Below, piece after piece: positions 1,814 through 9,028 of a stretch of 64,000 nt of DNA. Position 1 is the first letter of the stretch. Each line of letters opens with the position of its first letter. The position numbers and the translations under genes are program-made. Source of the stretch: Candidatus Fermentibacteraceae bacterium (GTDB lineage: Bacteria > Fermentibacterota > Fermentibacteria > Fermentibacterales > JCC-6). The notes beneath the pieces are model-generated. The model saw nothing but the letters and a program-made list of their open reading frames with translations, searched no databases and was not told the DNA's origin. The stretch spans positions 62,001 to 126,000 of the forward strand of contig JADGDO010000003.1 of NCBI GenBank assembly GCA_016744855.1, given 5' to 3'.

Positions 1814-3868
1814 TCAGAGGAGTAAATCACGCAATCCTTTTACCGTTTCTACAGGAAGATTACATGTTCCATTTCTGCATACAGATGCTTCAGATTTTTC
1901 GCCATCCGGTCTTTCTGAAAACTGAACGGTAGTCCAGGGTCTATAGTTAGTTCGTACAACATCAAGCATGTCCTGTAATAACGGATCATTTAAGCTACCT
2001 GAAAGAAGAACCTCTGATCCCACCTGCTGACCGTACAAAATCCCGGAAAGCATCATTGAGTAACTTCGAGGGGTTGCTGCCGCAGAAGCACCAAAAGAAC
2101 CTTCGATCTCACCAGCCCGTTCCATATAGGATGACTCACCAGTGAGCTTGGACAATGTTATCAGATTTAAAAGTTCAACTGAATTCCCCGAGGGAAGAGC
2201 ACCGTCATAAGATTCCTTTAATCTTGCTATCTGCATATCCAAATCATCTCCTGTGAAGAAGTAACCACCACCTGACTGATCACGGAAACTCAGATCAAGT
2301 CGGGCCTGAAGATCGATTGCGAATTGAAGATAACCGTGATCAAGCGTTGCATTGTGCAGTTCGAGAGAACCCATAATCAGAAAAGCATAGTCATCAATAA
2401 AAGCATCCGGACCTCTCCTACCCGCTGCGTAGCTGTGACTGAGTCTCGAGTCCTCAGCAATCATCTTCTCTTTAATGAACTCAAAACTCTTCACAGCTGC
2501 ATTAAGATATTCTTCATTATTCAGAACAACAGATGCCCTTGCCAGTGAAGCAATCATCAGTCCGTTCCAGTCTGCAAGGATTTTTTCATCCCTTGCCGGG
2601 CGCGGTCTGCTTTCTCTGGTCTGGTAAAGAATCTCGCGGATGGTCTCCAGTTCAACCAGCTGCTCTGCAGTGAAGGAGGAGCTGGCGGATTGATGAAGAA
2701 TATCAACATTGTCAGAGATATTCCAGAATTCTACAGCTAGAGCACTCTGCTCCGAAGAGAGTACAGAGGAGAAATCATCAACCTTCCATGTGTAAAATGA
2801 TCCTTCGCCCCCCTCACTGTCGGCGTCCTCAGAAGAATAGAATGCTCCTTCAGGAGATGACATATCACGGAGCACATAGTTAATGATTTCAGAAGCTGCA
2901 TCTGCAAAAAAACGGTCTCCGGTAACCTGATAAGTTTCCAGAAAGGCCATTGTGACAAGAGCCTGGTCATAGAGCATTTTTTCATAGTGAGGTACCAACC
3001 ATTCTCTGTCTGTAGAATAACGATGAATACCAAACCCGATCTGATCATAAATGCCACCATACCGAATTGCCCGTAGTGTTGAAGTCACCATATCAAGAGA
3101 ATTATGCTCTCCTGTAGCCTTCCAATAGCGTAGCAGAAAAAGCAGATTATGCGGAGATGGAAATTTGGGCGCATTCCCGAAACCGCCACGCTCGCCATCA
3201 AAAGATCTCGAAAAACGTATATAGGCTGAATCCACGGATGCATGCATTGTTTCAATCGAAACAGAAGAAGGAGGGGAACTTGTCAGCACGGCGCTCTCTA
3301 TCTCTTCTGCCTGTCTCAGAAGTGCTTCACGATTCGTGTCCCACTGAAAAGCTATTGAGGGAATAAGCTCAAGCATTCCCCTTCTTCCGAAAGATGTAGT
3401 TCTGGGTATGTATGTTCCTGCGAAAAAGGGTTTCCCGTCAGGTGTCATTACGACAGACATCGGCCACCCTCCACCACCGGTTAACGCAACTGTAAACCTC
3501 ATATAAAGGTTATCGATATCTGGTCTTTCCTCCCGGTCAACCTTAATGCAGATAAAAGTTTCATTCATCAGCTCAGCAACTTCTGCATTCTCAAAACATT
3601 CCTCTTCCATAACATGACACCAATGGCAGGAAGAGTAGCCGATTGAAAGAAAGATGGGTTTGTTCTCTTGAATAGCAGCGGCGAATGCCTCTTCTCCCCA
3701 TGCATACCAGTTCACAGGATTATCAGCGTGGGATAGAAGATAAGAACTTGTTTCCTCAGAAAGCCTGTTCATCCCGTCAGCTCCTTCCGGATACTCTACA
3801 GCACTGCAACCCGATCCTGCAGCTAAAAATAGAGGTATCAGCAAATGCATTGTTGTTTGTATTTTCAT
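1814..3868 (-). CDS. DUF255/YyaL-type thioredoxin-fold protein, exported
   Basis: 684 residues. The start is an ATG with AGGAG 9 nt upstream; it puts an export signal at the N-terminus with a Cys at GSGC, possibly a lipoprotein site. The N-terminal domain is the thioredoxin-like DUF255 module: [13 protein letters not shown], then [10 protein letters not shown] with both active-site-like Cys, then [11 protein letters not shown]. The rest matches the (alpha/alpha) glycosidase-like body of the YyaL/SSP411 family ([47 protein letters not shown]). Length is normal for the family. Family members are mostly cytosolic, so a signal peptide is worth noting. The C-terminus keeps a CRNGTCNLP motif. Function of the family is poorly defined. 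Single gene, 69 nt from the Fn3 membrane gene downstream. Confidence 0.9.
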
Positions 3869-3999
3869 ACTAAATTGATCTCCTTTGTCATAAGGATACA
3901 ATAGACAAAGGTACTCGGTTCCATATGAAGTATTTGTAGACACAGCGCTCTCTGTATGAGTATGTTAGAGGACATGTTACTGATTTCTTTACTAAAAAC

Positions 4000-4067
4000 A
4001 GGAGGCGCAACATGATCATTCTTTCCTGAAATAACGGCATACAGGCAGTTTTTCAGAAAGGATATTC
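4000..4067 (+). promoter_or_regulatory. Predicted translational attenuator of the ABC-F gene
   Basis: The leader holds a consensus AGGAGG (4000-4005), six bases, then an ATG opening a five-codon ORF with its TGA at 4027-4029. The end of that ORF lies in CTTTCCTGAAA (4021-4031), which can pair with TTTCAGAAAG (4051-4060), leaving one bulged C. The right arm covers most of the AAAGGA (4057-4062) that serves the ABC-F start at 4068. A ribosome paused on the short ORF would open the stem and free the site. This is the layout of erm- and ABC-F-type antibiotic-induced attenuators. The pairing is visible in the sequence; induction is inference. Confidence 0.55.
4012..4029 (+). CDS. Five-codon leader peptide MIILS
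   Basis: ATG-ATC-ATT-CTT-TCC-TGA, with the strongest Shine-Dalgarno of the leader at ideal spacing. It overlaps the left arm of a stem that can mask the ribosome-binding site of the downstream ABC-F gene. It is too short to do anything except be translated or stall a ribosome. It may be a chance ORF, but the perfect SD without any other gene to serve argues for a leader peptide. Confidence 0.5.
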   Translation: MIILS

Positions 4068-5558
4068 ATGTATCAGACCTTTTTACGTTTCCGCAATGTT
4101 TCTTATACCTATCCCGGATCAAATACCAGTGCAGTAAGTTCAGTATCCTTGAACTTCGGGGCTGGATGGGCAGCTTTCGCAGGCCCCAACGGCTCCGGTA
4201 AAACTACAGTTCTTAAGCTGGCTACCGGGCTTCTCTATCCGGAAACAGGATCAATCGTTTCCTCGGGAAATACTGTTTACTGTGCCCAGAGAACAGATTA
4301 CCCGCCTGGCAACAGGGACAATTTTCTATTGGACTGGTCAAAAGAAGCCATTAAGCTCAGAGACAGTCTTCAGATCGAAGATGACTGGGGTGAAAGATGG
4401 AGCACTCTGTCGCATGGTGAAAGAAAAAGGCTTCAGATTGCCGTCGCTCTGTGGAGCCGACCGGCCGTGCTGGCCCTTGATGAACCCTTCAACCATCTGG
4501 ACATTTATGGAAGAAGTCTTCTCAAAGACGCAATGTTGAACTACAAAGGTTGTGGTCTTCTTGTCAGCCACGACAGGCATGCACTGGATTCTATCTGCTC
4601 CTCTTGTACCCTTTTCCTTCCGGAGGGAGTCCAGCTATTTAAAACCGGCTACACAGGAGCAGTGAAAGCTGACATCGGACAGCAGAATGATCTCCGGAAA
4701 CAACACAAAGAGGCAAAGTCAAACTACTTCAGGTTAAAAAAGGATGCTAGACGCAAAATGCTAAAGGCTCGTACGATTCAGGCACACGCTTCCGGAAGAA
4801 ATATCTCCTTCAAAGATATCTGCAAGAGTAACTGTGACGGACCCTCACGAGTAGATGGAATAGTACAGAAAGCCGGTCAGAGAAGCAGGAAGGCGGCGGC
4901 TCGAGCAGATAAGGCGCGAGAGCAAATGGAAACAATTTCCTGCAGGAAAATTTACAATTCCGGAATTGAACTTAGCGGAGAAAACTCATCGAGAAATTAT
5001 CTTCTTAAAATTCACTCCGGTGAAGTAACAGCAGGAAGCAGAACACTCACATACCCTGACCTGGAAATAGGGACAGAAAACAAAATTGCTCTGACAGGAA
5101 GAAATGGTGCTGGAAAAACCCTTTTCCTTAATCACATTCACTTAAGACTGAACTGTCCGCCAGACAAGCTTCTGTGGATTCCTCAGGAAATCACTGCAGA
5201 ACAATCGAGTATTTGCCTTTCAGAAGCAAAAAATACTTCCAAAGAAAATCTTGGCAAAATAATGACAATAGCTAGAAGGCTGGGAAGTGACCCGAAACGG
5301 ATTCTTACCTCAGCAGTTCCTAGCCCGGGAGAAACCAGAAAACTTCTTCTTGCTCTCGGTCTCGCTAAAACCCCCTGGCTTGTCGTGATGGATGAGCCGA
5401 CCAACCACATGGATCTGCCATCAGTTGAATGCCTTGAAAGGGCTCTTAACGATTTCTCAGGGGCTCTTCTTCTTGTTAGTCACGATCAGGTGTTTCTGGA
5501 GCAGACAGCAAATCAATTCTGGAAGATTGAAAATGACAGACTATCAGTCACCTATTAA
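4068..5558 (+). CDS. ABC-F family ATPase (ribosome-acting, tandem NBDs)
   Basis: 496 residues, no membrane segments. Two nucleotide-binding domains are joined by a basic linker. NBD1 has Walker A GPNGSGKT (39-46), signature LSHGE (114-118) and Walker B with DEPFNHLD. NBD2 has GRNGAGKT (344-351), a weakened signature SPGE (419-422) and VMDEPTNHMDL. Both catalytic Glu are present. The linker (about 205-290) is rich in Lys/Arg, as in ABC-F proteins that reach into the ribosomal exit site. ABC-F members either regulate translation or protect ribosomes from antibiotics; the short-ORF leader in front favours protection, but the substrate cannot be told. It ends 15 nt inside the convergent barrel gene. 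Start: ATG with AAAGGA 5 nt before it. Confidence 0.88.
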   Translation: MYQTFLRFRNVSYTYPGSNTSAVSSVSLNFGAGWAAFAGPNGSGKTTVLKLATGLLYPETGSIVSSGNTVYCAQRTDYPPGNRDNFLLDWSKEAIKLRDSLQIEDDWGERWSTLSHGERKRLQIAVALWSRPAVLALDEPFNHLDIYGRSLLKDAMLNYKGCGLLVSHDRHALDSICSSCTLFLPEGVQLFKTGYTGAVKADIGQQNDLRKQHKEAKSNYFRLKKDARRKMLKARTIQAHASGRNISFKDICKSNCDGPSRVDGIVQKAGQRSRKAAARADKAREQMETISCRKIYNSGIELSGENSSRNYLLKIHSGEVTAGSRTLTYPDLEIGTENKIALTGRNGAGKTLFLNHIHLRLNCPPDKLLWIPQEITAEQSSICLSEAKNTSKENLGKIMTIARRLGSDPKRILTSAVPSPGETRKLLLALGLAKTPWLVVMDEPTNHMDLPSVECLERALNDFSGALLLVSHDQVFLEQTANQFWKIENDRLSVTY

Positions 5559-6623
5559 GTAAGAAACGCCAAAGTTGAAAATTGTGTATGAGTCATCAAT
5601 TCTATCAGACTCTTCATTAGGAAAAGCAGTATTTCTTCTGGCTCTGAATCTGTTAAGAAGCCCACCGCCAATAGAAAAATTACCAAGACGGCCCGAAAAA
5701 CCCATACCGAATCCCAAACCGGCTCTGTTAGCAACACGGTTATCATCAAAACTGACTGAGACCATTGCTTCCATGCTATCCTTGAGAGGCATTCTTAAAA
5801 ACAGTTTTCCCATAAATTGATTTTTATTGAATGGAGAGGTCACCTCTGCTTCAAATCCGACAGTCACATTCTGAATATGCTCGGCAAATGCACTTCCACC
5901 CAGAGCGATAATGTCTTTCATATGTTCAGTTTCAGAGGCGTAGGAAAGACCGGACTTAAAGATCTGACCGTTTAATGCGAGACCTGCATGCCAAGCAAAC
6001 TCTTTACTGTATTGGGACCAGAGCAATGAAGAATCAGGTACCAGGACTTGATAACTGTCATAGAAATACTGGTAGTCTGCTTGAGCCCGGCGAATTCCAC
6101 CTGATATACCAGCAGAGAAATCGCCTGAAATCATAGTGGATATACTGCCCATGGCTTCAATCTGCGAACCCTGAGCCTGAAGCACTTCCAGCCCTATAAG
6201 AACATAAGAGCTCGGATGCTCAAAGATAGAAGTCATACCGTCGTAACCGAATTCACCCACCTTCGTTACCCCTGCACCTATTGTTATTCCTCCAAGTGGG
6301 TAGACAATAGCAGCCATTCCATTGCTGTTAATTATCTGGGTACGAATAGTTTTATCTATATCATTTTCAATAACCCGCTCTGTCCAGGAAATAGAAGAAC
6401 CGGAAAGCTGGATAGTAAATGGGTAATTTGCTGTCTGAGCAGGATTAGTGAAAATACTTGCTGCCTCCCTAACACCGACAGCGCGTACCGTACCCAGAGC
6501 GACAGTGTAGGGCGAGAAACCACCGAGAACAGTGCCATTTGTAATGGAATCATGGTAGCCGTAGCCAAAAACAGGAGAACTCGCGATAACAAGAATTAGA
6601 AATAAGCCATTGAGATACTTCAT
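5544..6623 (-). CDS. Outer-membrane beta-barrel, PorV/FadL-like, copy 1
   Basis: 359 residues beginning at an ATG with GAGGGG 6 nt upstream. A signal peptide (MKYLNGLFLILVIASSPVFG) is followed by an amphipathic, Gly-rich protein with the FadL/PorV-style opening GTVRAVG...ASIFTNPAQ and many alternating strands, ending in the aromatic-rich barrel strand IFNFGVSYLIGD. It is a close paralogue of the gene at 7772-8851 (shared GYHD-ITNGTVLGGFSPYTVALGTVRAVG and NRFRARRNT segments). Such barrels carry hydrophobic ligands or serve type IX secretion; which applies here is unknown. It overlaps the ABC-F gene tail to tail by 15 nt. Confidence 0.8.
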   Translation of the reverse strand: MKYLNGLFLILVIASSPVFGYGYHDSITNGTVLGGFSPYTVALGTVRAVGVREAASIFTNPAQTANYPFTIQLSGSSISWTERVIENDIDKTIRTQIINSNGMAAIVYPLGGITIGAGVTKVGEFGYDGMTSIFEHPSSYVLIGLEVLQAQGSQIEAMGSISTMISGDFSAGISGGIRRAQADYQYFYDSYQVLVPDSSLLWSQYSKEFAWHAGLALNGQIFKSGLSYASETEHMKDIIALGGSAFAEHIQNVTVGFEAEVTSPFNKNQFMGKLFLRMPLKDSMEAMVSVSFDDNRVANRAGLGFGMGFSGRLGNFSIGGGLLNRFRARRNTAFPNEESDRIDDSYTIFNFGVSYLIGD

Positions 6624-6858
6624 GGATACCCCTCTCATAAATAGCCATTATACAATGTATCGACTCTGTCTCCCATTCACTTATAATAATATGTATACTC
6701 AGACACAAGGCAAGAGGTATTCTATCTTTAACCGTGCAAGAAGTAGAGTATTTGTCTTGTATATATTGTATTTCCTACTAACTCCGACAACTTCTTACTT
6801 TACTTGAAAGAAAAAAATTGCTGTTAACAGAAGTTCAATTTCTCTGAGTTCGGGAAAT

Positions 6859-7771: not shown

Positions 7772-8851
7772 TCAGTTTCCAATAAGATATGAAACACCCA
7801 GGTTCAGTATTGTGTAAGAGTCATCCACCCTATTGGCGAATTCCCCCGGAAAGTTTGTATTCCTCCTAGCTCTGAATCTGTTAAGAATTCCTCCTCCAAT
7901 TGTATACCTGCCAACACGCCCTGAAAAACCCATCCCAAAACCAAAGCCGGCCCTGTTCGCTATCCTGTTATCATCAAAGCTTACAGAAACAAGGCTTTCC
8001 AAGCTTTTTGTTAGAGGCATGGTGAGGAAGAGCTTACCTAGAAACTGATTCTTGTCAAAGGGAGATGTAATCTCTGCTTCAAAACCCATTGTAATTTTCT
8101 TTATGTGTTCAGCATAGGCACTTCCACCAAAGGCGATAATATCTTCCATATCTTCTGTTTCAGAAGAGTAGGATAGCCCTGATTTAAACAAATCACCATT
8201 CAATGCCAATCCTGCGTGCCAGGCAAACTCACTGTTTTCCCTGATAGTAAAAGCGGATGAATCAGGCAGGGTGATTCTAAAACTTTCAAACTGGTAATCG
8301 CTCTCAGTAGAAACACGGCGCATTCCCAAGGATATTCCCGCTGACAGCGGGTCCGAAACAACAAATGAAAAACTTCCCATTGCTTCTATCTGTTCTCCCG
8401 AAGAAACCAAAAGTGCAACTCCGATTGAATCTTCATACACATCATCAAAAAGGAAGGCCATCCCATCATAGCCGTATTCGCCAACCTTTGCTAAACCTGC
8501 ACCGACGGTGATTCCCTCACCTAAAGGATAGACTACTGCACCCATACCATTGTCAAAAGTCACAAGTGTTCTGAGTGTTTTATCAATGTCTGACACAATA
8601 ACTCTCTCTGCCCAGGATATGGAAGAACCGGACAGTTGGATAGAGAAGGGGTGGGTTGATAGTTGCGCCGGGTTGGTAAAAATGCTTGCGGGTTCTGAAG
8701 CACCCACCGCGCGGACAGTACCGAGTGCCACAGTGTAAGGAGAGAAGCCACCGAGAACTGTACCGTTTGTAAGTGCATCGTGGTAACCGAACGCGAGAAT
8801 TTTGGAACTGCAAGTGATCAAAATCAGAATAAAACTACTCACTATTTTCAT
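7772..8851 (-). CDS. Outer-membrane beta-barrel, PorV/FadL-like, copy 2
   Basis: 359 residues, exactly the length of its paralogue at 5544-6623. The start is the ATG after GGGAG. It has a signal peptide (MKIVSSFILILITCSSKILA), the same FGYHDALTNGTVLGG opening and the same final strand (LNLGVSYLIGN). Identity is highest at the N-terminus and in the last third; loops in the middle differ, as expected for barrels that diverged after duplication. The two copies are separated by an oppositely oriented acetyltransferase, so this is not a simple tandem repeat. Ligand unknown. Confidence 0.8.
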   Translation of the reverse strand: MKIVSSFILILITCSSKILAFGYHDALTNGTVLGGFSPYTVALGTVRAVGASEPASIFTNPAQLSTHPFSIQLSGSSISWAERVIVSDIDKTLRTLVTFDNGMGAVVYPLGEGITVGAGLAKVGEYGYDGMAFLFDDVYEDSIGVALLVSSGEQIEAMGSFSFVVSDPLSAGISLGMRRVSTESDYQFESFRITLPDSSAFTIRENSEFAWHAGLALNGDLFKSGLSYSSETEDMEDIIAFGGSAYAEHIKKITMGFEAEITSPFDKNQFLGKLFLTMPLTKSLESLVSVSFDDNRIANRAGFGFGMGFSGRVGRYTIGGGILNRFRARRNTNFPGEFANRVDDSYTILNLGVSYLIGN

Positions 8852-9028
8852 GTCTACTCCCAGCAATACAATATTTCAGCAATCTATTTGCCATGTCTAG
8901 CTCTTATCAATAATAATCACATGCCACAATACTGGACAAGAGGCTATTTAGGCTTTAACTGCCATTGAAGTAATGATATTCCATAAGTCGAATACTGATG
9001 TTCTTAAGGCCGTGTAGATCCAATGTCG

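Follow-up and report, generated by a model that had tools for sequence, protein, structure and literature searches.

The window, a 64,000-nt stretch of DNA from Candidatus Fermentibacteraceae bacterium, encodes an ABC-F protein whose gene follows a five-codon open reading frame with a strong Shine-Dalgarno (SD) sequence of its own. An earlier note on this DNA had pointed to an AGGAGG, a short ORF (MIILS), an AAAGGA and the ABC-F start codon, in a lineage that is not Gram-positive. Direct reading of the sequence found all four, and the lineage is indeed Fermentibacteraceae. The features are:

3937-3966, plus strand: putative sigma-70 promoter, TAGACA (3937-3942), an 18-nt spacer and TATGTT (3961-3966), from a consensus scan
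4000-4005, plus strand: SD of the leader ORF, AGGAGG, from the sequence
4012-4029, plus strand: leader ORF (uORF), ATGATCATTCTTTCCTGA, 5 codons encoding MIILS and then a stop, from the sequence and the loci of relatives
4011-4035, plus strand: left arm of the hairpin, comprising the start region (4011-4015), the SD-masking codons 3-5 (4018-4025), and the stop codon with the next bases (4027-4035)
4048-4070, plus strand: right arm of the hairpin, which holds the SD and start codon of the ABC-F gene, from the predicted fold and conservation
4057-4062, plus strand: SD of the ABC-F gene, AAAGGA, masked according to its predicted unpaired probability
4068-5558, plus strand: ABC-F gene, with its ATG at 4068 and 496 amino acids, from the ORF, motifs and predicted structure

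The leader codons are ATG ATC ATT CTT TCC TGA, with 6 nt between AGGAGG and the leader ATG. AAAGGA lies 5 nt before the ABC-F ATG, and the distance from the leader stop to the ABC-F ATG is 37-38 nt. The minimum-energy fold of 3992-4070 has an energy of -20.4 kcal/mol, as compared to -9.9 +/- 2.3 kcal/mol for shuffled sequences (z = -4.6), and none of 200 shuffles reached it. In this predicted fold, leader codons 3-5 (A4018-C4025) pair with G4056-U4063, which buries the SD of the ABC-F gene entirely; C4026 is a bulge; and the stop codon UGA with the following AA (U4027-A4031) pairs with U4051-A4055. The leader stop thus lies inside the left arm of the stem, as the earlier note had proposed. The two start codons are also paired together (CAUGA at 4011-4015 with UCAUG at 4066-4070), and the leader's AGGAGG is left unpaired. 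The note had described a 10-bp stem; the stem does mask AAAGGA, but it consists of 8 and 5 bp on either side of the bulge, with a further 5 bp at the base and weak pairing at the apex.

We found no intrinsic terminator between the leader and the gene when scanning 3850-5700, so control looks purely translational. Rfam gave no relevant match near the leader element. On the minus strand, 5544-6638 and 7772-8866 encode two related 364-aa proteins that are predicted to be secreted or in the outer membrane, with an acetyltransferase-like gene between them; the first of them and the ABC-F gene converge and overlap at their 3' ends.

We screened 374 predicted genes from this genome (the 64 kb of the window and another 399 kb, or about 463 kb as background) for short SD-bearing ORFs whose bases pair with the SD of the downstream gene. 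The ABC-F gene had the top score, and the other high scorers began at TTG or GTG or had a weak leader SD of 4 nt. The best of the other candidates for an attenuator in the same genome (MFVIL*, at about 5168-5185 of L113, contig C52) is absent from the relatives that were checked and is probably due to chance. (This mini-ORF pairs with a downstream AAGGA, and the product of the gene has ferredoxin-type cysteine motifs.) A covariance model of the element, run over 42 genomes, gave 21 strong matches, all of them ahead of this ABC-F gene. We also considered the weaker matches as copies before other genes and rejected them: they were mostly the same hairpins read on the complementary strand or had E > 0.02.

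Within the phylum, 24 of the 42 genomes (and 12 of the 24 of best quality) carry the ABC-F gene; they belong to 3 of 9 genera, all within one family. Two named contigs (L005 and L006) are from Candidatus Fermentibacteraceae, and their ABC-F protein is 67% identical; they share their leader sequences with L011 and L012, which belong to the genus of the window's genome. The gene neighbourhoods vary between species, some close relatives excepted, which implies that the leader goes with the gene, whatever its genomic location. The earlier note would have been undermined by related genomes that lack the short ORF or the stem. Instead, both are kept in all 24 gene-bearing genomes: each locus has an SD-like sequence, an ATG, an ORF of five or six codons, a strand that masks the SD, and a leader stop that is in the stem or close to it (in L027 and L028, pairing of the stop is predicted to be only partial). 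A predicted SD-masking hairpin that overlaps the leader ORF, the geometry which the note had recognized as that of an attenuator, is a constant feature of these loci. The leader has 5 codons in the 21 loci of the main clade and 6 codons in 3 divergent loci, and most main-clade leader ATGs are preceded by an extended SD-like sequence (AGG..GGTG).

Pairwise identity within the main clade is 78% for the 70-nt element, as compared to 33% for the upstream sequence and 50% for third codon positions; it rises to 98% for the right arm and 100% for the leader ATG. The promoter-like TAGACA-18-TATGTT is about 100 nt 5' of the ABC-F ATG, similar sites lie at about the same distance in most main-clade homologs, and conservation has a local peak at -110. 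The leader peptide is not conserved. The 24 loci encode 13 different peptides (MIILS, MNILS, MTISF, MNTSF, MTNSF, MIITF, MGISF, MNISF, MIISF, MGITF, MILSIR, MFISIR, and MIITIR), and a conserved arrest peptide of the erm or msrD type is absent from them.

The changes between these loci are informative about what is being maintained. In genus g1, the left arm is one base longer and the sequence upstream of it one base shorter, and the five codons are kept. In L033, the stop codon is TAG in place of TGA, and the partner bases are altered to match (G-C to A-U). The divergent clade, whose proteins are 49-50% identical, has CCGG-type stem bases and a six-codon ORF, uses all three stop codons, and has replaced both sides of two base pairs (TA to CG at -1 and TA to GC at -3, relative to the SD). 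The indel compensation in g1, the stop swap in L033 and the redesign in the divergent clade imply selection on the ORF and not on the stem alone. Covariation is present in the masking stem, with few changes within the nearly invariant main clade. Because MAFFT aligns the left arms of genera g1 and g2 one base out of register, the covariation count from RNAalifold (1 pair) is unreliable, and we read stem pairing in each sequence instead of from the alignment. Overall, the leader element is very likely real and under selection.

Two loci had other peculiarities. In L025, a long near-perfect inverted repeat (GGGCCGGGCGTCACTTATGGTCACTT...) lies directly before the leader SD, about 80-150 nt 5' of the ABC-F start, apparently in place of the usual promoter. 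In L030/L033 (contig C11 of genome G027), the leader is intact and the ABC-F coding sequence occupies two frames (1-130 and 130-494), owing to a real frameshift or an assembly error.

The protein has the defining features of an ABC-F: a single chain contains two ABC ATPase domains with a two-helix linker between them and no transmembrane part, and its whole-length PDB matches are led by ABC-F proteins. The first nucleotide-binding domain (NBD1) has the Walker A motif GPNGSGKT, the signature LSHGE, and LDEP; the second (NBD2) has GRNGAGKT, PSPGE, and MDEP. The linker is at about 195-289 (helices 195-241 and 264-289), and there is no Arm. The distance from Walker A to the signature is 76 amino acids, as compared to 64-66 in Msr, 81 in Lsa, and 125 in EttA; the distance from the signature to the second Walker A is 229 amino acids, as compared to 227-228, 223, and 192. 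An Arm-less NBD1 with an extended linker matches the build of Msr and Lsa and differs from that of EttA and OptrA. The closest structural matches to the predicted structure (pLDDT 89) were VgaL (Z = 39.4), VmlR2 (38.5), LsaA (36.4), VmlR (36.0), and VgaA-LC (35.2), which score slightly above EttA (34.6), by modest margins.

The best NCBIfam match is NF000355 ("ribosomal protection-like"), at 252 bits with a cut-off of 380, and the protein falls below every NCBIfam cut-off for resistance. We rejected this match as proof of resistance, as the housekeeping protein YbiT scores 431 bits against the same model. In a 45-sequence tree, which did not include the Sal, CarA/TlrC and LmrC groups, the protein and its homologs from other bacterial families form a clade of their own with 100/100 support. 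This clade is apart from all of the sampled resistance subfamilies (Msr, Vga, Lsa, OptrA, and PoxtA) and also from the housekeeping EttA, Uup, YheS, and YbiT. The protein thus groups with neither EttA nor Uup, a placement that would have counted against the earlier note, and the note's idea of a new type of ABC-F gains support. The genome's own EttA-like gene (Own_C96) groups with EttA from E. coli, and a second ABC-F of its own (Own_C14) lies in an unresolved group on the housekeeping side of the tree. We identified no member of the clade with a tested function. The note had also called the second signature weakened. SPGE is indeed present, and PSPGE is found in nearly the whole clade (the variants are PSPGQ in L079 and PTPGQ in L065). 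However, PoxtA, which confers resistance to oxazolidinones and phenicols, has an SPGE second signature too, so PSPGE is a mark of the family and not evidence of lost function, and a new mechanism cannot be read from the motif alone.

Beyond the phylum, 15 of 63 genomes from one other class have homologs (33-44% identity over the matched part), and we read their upstream regions in an exploratory way. L065 and L079 have overlapping ORFs (MRLFR... and MRIIR...) in the region from -61, counted from the start of the ABC-F gene, along with an ATAACGG hairpin over the SD. L072 has a leader and a terminator; L073-L075 have terminator/antiterminator-like pairs; and L064, from another lineage, has the leader MRIISTGNI*. 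Others among the out-of-phylum homologs have nothing obvious upstream. In the last 80 nt before the ABC-F gene, L073, L074, and L075 have a terminator-like GCCACG/CGTGGC hairpin, a U-run, and an overlapping alternative hairpin, which looks like transcription attenuation, a design unlike that in the window. On this exploratory reading, attenuation-like signals recur around the subfamily in varied designs, as they do for known resistance ABC-Fs. As a separate observation, the leaders of the out-of-phylum homologs (L064, L065, L072, L077, and L079) mostly start with Met-Arg (MRLFR, MRIIR, MRIIS, MRQVD, and MRNLS), which recalls the cplR consensus MR[I/M] and the macrolide motif MRL.

To model the effect of a ribosome on the leader, we blocked the bases it would cover and refolded the RNA. 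At rest, the predicted probability that the AAGGA core of the ABC-F SD is unpaired is 0.002 in the window and averages 0.08 across the 24 loci. With a ribosome on the leader AUG, the mean rises to 0.63. The modelled gain is weaker in L019 (to 0.39) and L033 (to 0.25), and there is none in L028 (0.41 to 0.24). With the leader stop codon in the A site, the mean is 0.46 and the value for the window is 0.06, so stalling at the stop codon may not work in the window. In the five-codon leaders, the bases that mask the SD are at +8 to +13 (up to +14 in L026 and L027). The toeprint of the 30S subunit on the vmlR uORF is 16 nt downstream of the A of the start codon (PMC9226507), so a ribosome parked at the start codon should cover the masking bases. 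This would leave the peptide sequence free and fix the position and length of the ORF.

We propose the following mechanism. At rest, leader codons 3-5 and the stop codon would be paired to the SD region of the ABC-F gene, whose translation would be off, and the strong SD before the leader would remain open. A normal ribosome would initiate, add five residues, terminate, and depart, and the hairpin would reform. A ribosome that is delayed at the leader's start codon or the next few codons would cover the masking strand and free AAAGGA, and a second ribosome could then start on the ABC-F gene. No particular arrest peptide would be needed, as the masking strand (+8 to +14) would be under the ribosome at the start codon. 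The likeliest signals would be drugs that stall ribosomes at or just after initiation, such as pleuromutilins, lincosamides, streptogramin A, and perhaps others, and the ABC-F protein would likely rescue ribosomes from such drugs. We do not favor sensing of the chloramphenicol or oxazolidinone type, which involves Ser or Thr at codon 4, as MIILS and MNILS do not fit. (The MxxSF, MxxTF, and most of the MxxxIR leaders do fit; codons 4-5 are dictated by the stem.) We judge a stalling-responsive translational attenuator to be the best explanation for the leader hairpin, and a probable one.

If the leader peptide is free, then the sensor need not be specific to drugs. The leader might instead report general stress on translation, with slowing caused by starvation, cold, assembly defects, or difficult start or stop contexts, and the ABC-F might resolve stalls rather than confer resistance. 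vmlR is also induced by defects in ribosome assembly (PMC9226507), and housekeeping ABC-F factors resolve stalls (PMC11381351). Nevertheless, we consider a general stress sensor to be unlikely: the gene's patchy presence (24 of 42 genomes, or 12 of the 24 best) is unlike that of a housekeeping factor, an EttA-like gene and another ABC-F on the housekeeping side are encoded separately in the genome, and the Arm-less, long-linker build of the protein also argues against it.

It is less likely still that the element is a device for constitutive translational coupling, in which leader translation would always open the hairpin and the output of ABC-F would track it at a constant ratio, without control by stalling. 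The leader SD is strong and any initiating ribosome would cover the masking strand; indeed, basal coupling could be substantial because, with so short a leader, every initiation event opens the hairpin. But mere coupling does not need a stop codon beside the strand that pairs with the SD or an ORF of strictly five or six codons, 37-38 nt from the leader stop to the main ATG is long for re-initiation, and several relatives outside the phylum have other attenuator-like signals of the stalling or terminator type. Finally, the A/U-rich stem that masks the SD resembles the four-U type pairings of RNA thermometers, which raises the idea that the hairpin acts by itself, for instance as a thermometer, and that the short ORF is incidental. 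This is very improbable, as all 24 loci keep the ATG, the five- or six-codon ORF, and the stop despite compensated indels and changed stem bases, and the leader ATG is 100% conserved in the main clade.

If a stalling-responsive attenuator does operate here, then antibiotic-inducible ribosome protection of the vmlR/cplR kind extends to a candidate phylum that is still uncultured, where the attenuator would have a very simple layout and the ABC-F subfamily is outside the sampled resistance families. This would also imply that bacteria in these habitats meet ribosome-targeting compounds and that the family is a chromosomal reservoir of such factors. Given this layout, the sequence of the leader peptide should be irrelevant and the length of the leader critical, which would bear on the minimum requirements of an antibiotic sensor. 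A more specific proposal, which we put forward tentatively as a real possibility, is that the element is a minimal, terminator-free sensor of any inhibitor that parks ribosomes at initiation. The sense codons of the leader would themselves be the anti-SD, and the ORF would be just long enough for its stop to fall at +16 to +19, where the footprint of the start-codon ribosome ends. The sensor would control a subfamily of resistance ABC-Fs, not placed in any sampled family, that is common to several lineages and is under a different attenuator design in each.

How does this compare to known systems? The erm attenuators (ermC, ermB, and ermD) have a leader ORF with a strong SD, a gene SD that is masked by structure, and no need for a terminator, and the window shares all three traits. 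In contrast, erm leaders encode arrest peptides and form several alternative hairpins, whereas the window has a single hairpin and a peptide that is not conserved. The earlier note likened the element to the attenuators of erm and ABC-F genes; of these, the sensors of start-codon stalling before vmlR, cplR, and lsa(A) fit better than an erm-type arrest peptide. As for the proteins, Msr(A)/Msr(D), Vga, Lsa, and PoxtA/OptrA are also two-NBD ABC-Fs, Msr and Lsa share the Arm-less build with a long linker, and PoxtA shares SPGE, but the window's protein lies in a separate clade (100/100). Among Gram-negative bacteria, the uORF toiL, upstream of topAI in E. coli, senses several ribosome-targeting drugs, including those that stall at the start codon (PMC12121999). 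toiL differs in that it belongs to a toxin-antitoxin operon, has 8 codons, is 139 nt upstream, and involves Rho-dependent termination.

The leader most resembles the short uORFs of vmlR, cplR, and lsa(A), whose sequences tolerate change. vmlR, which provides resistance to pleuromutilins, lincosamides, and streptogramin A in Bacillus subtilis, also has a very short uORF with its own SD and a coding sequence that tolerates changes: the uORF encodes MIN, the MDN and MDK variants still induce, and stalling is at the start codon (PMC9226507). It also shares a hairpin that masks the SD of the ABC-F gene (PMC9226507) and an ABC-F of similar fold, although the window's protein is only about 22-24% identical to VmlR. 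vmlR is controlled mainly by a terminator and antiterminator in a 219-nt leader with NusG pausing; in contrast, the window has one hairpin and no terminator, and the codons of the uORF themselves mask the SD. The uORFs of cplR (MR[I/M]), vmlR2 (MK[L/Q]), and lsaA (MAGN) are also short, and it has been suggested that PLSA drugs stall ribosomes on them with little dependence on context (PMC10201436). In cplR from Clostridioides difficile, as proposed for the window, the SD of the gene can be reached only if a ribosome is stalled on the short uORF (PMC10201436). cplR differs in having an added terminator, another length of uORF, and a protein of the ARE1 subfamily; translational attenuation suffices for its repression (PMC10201436).
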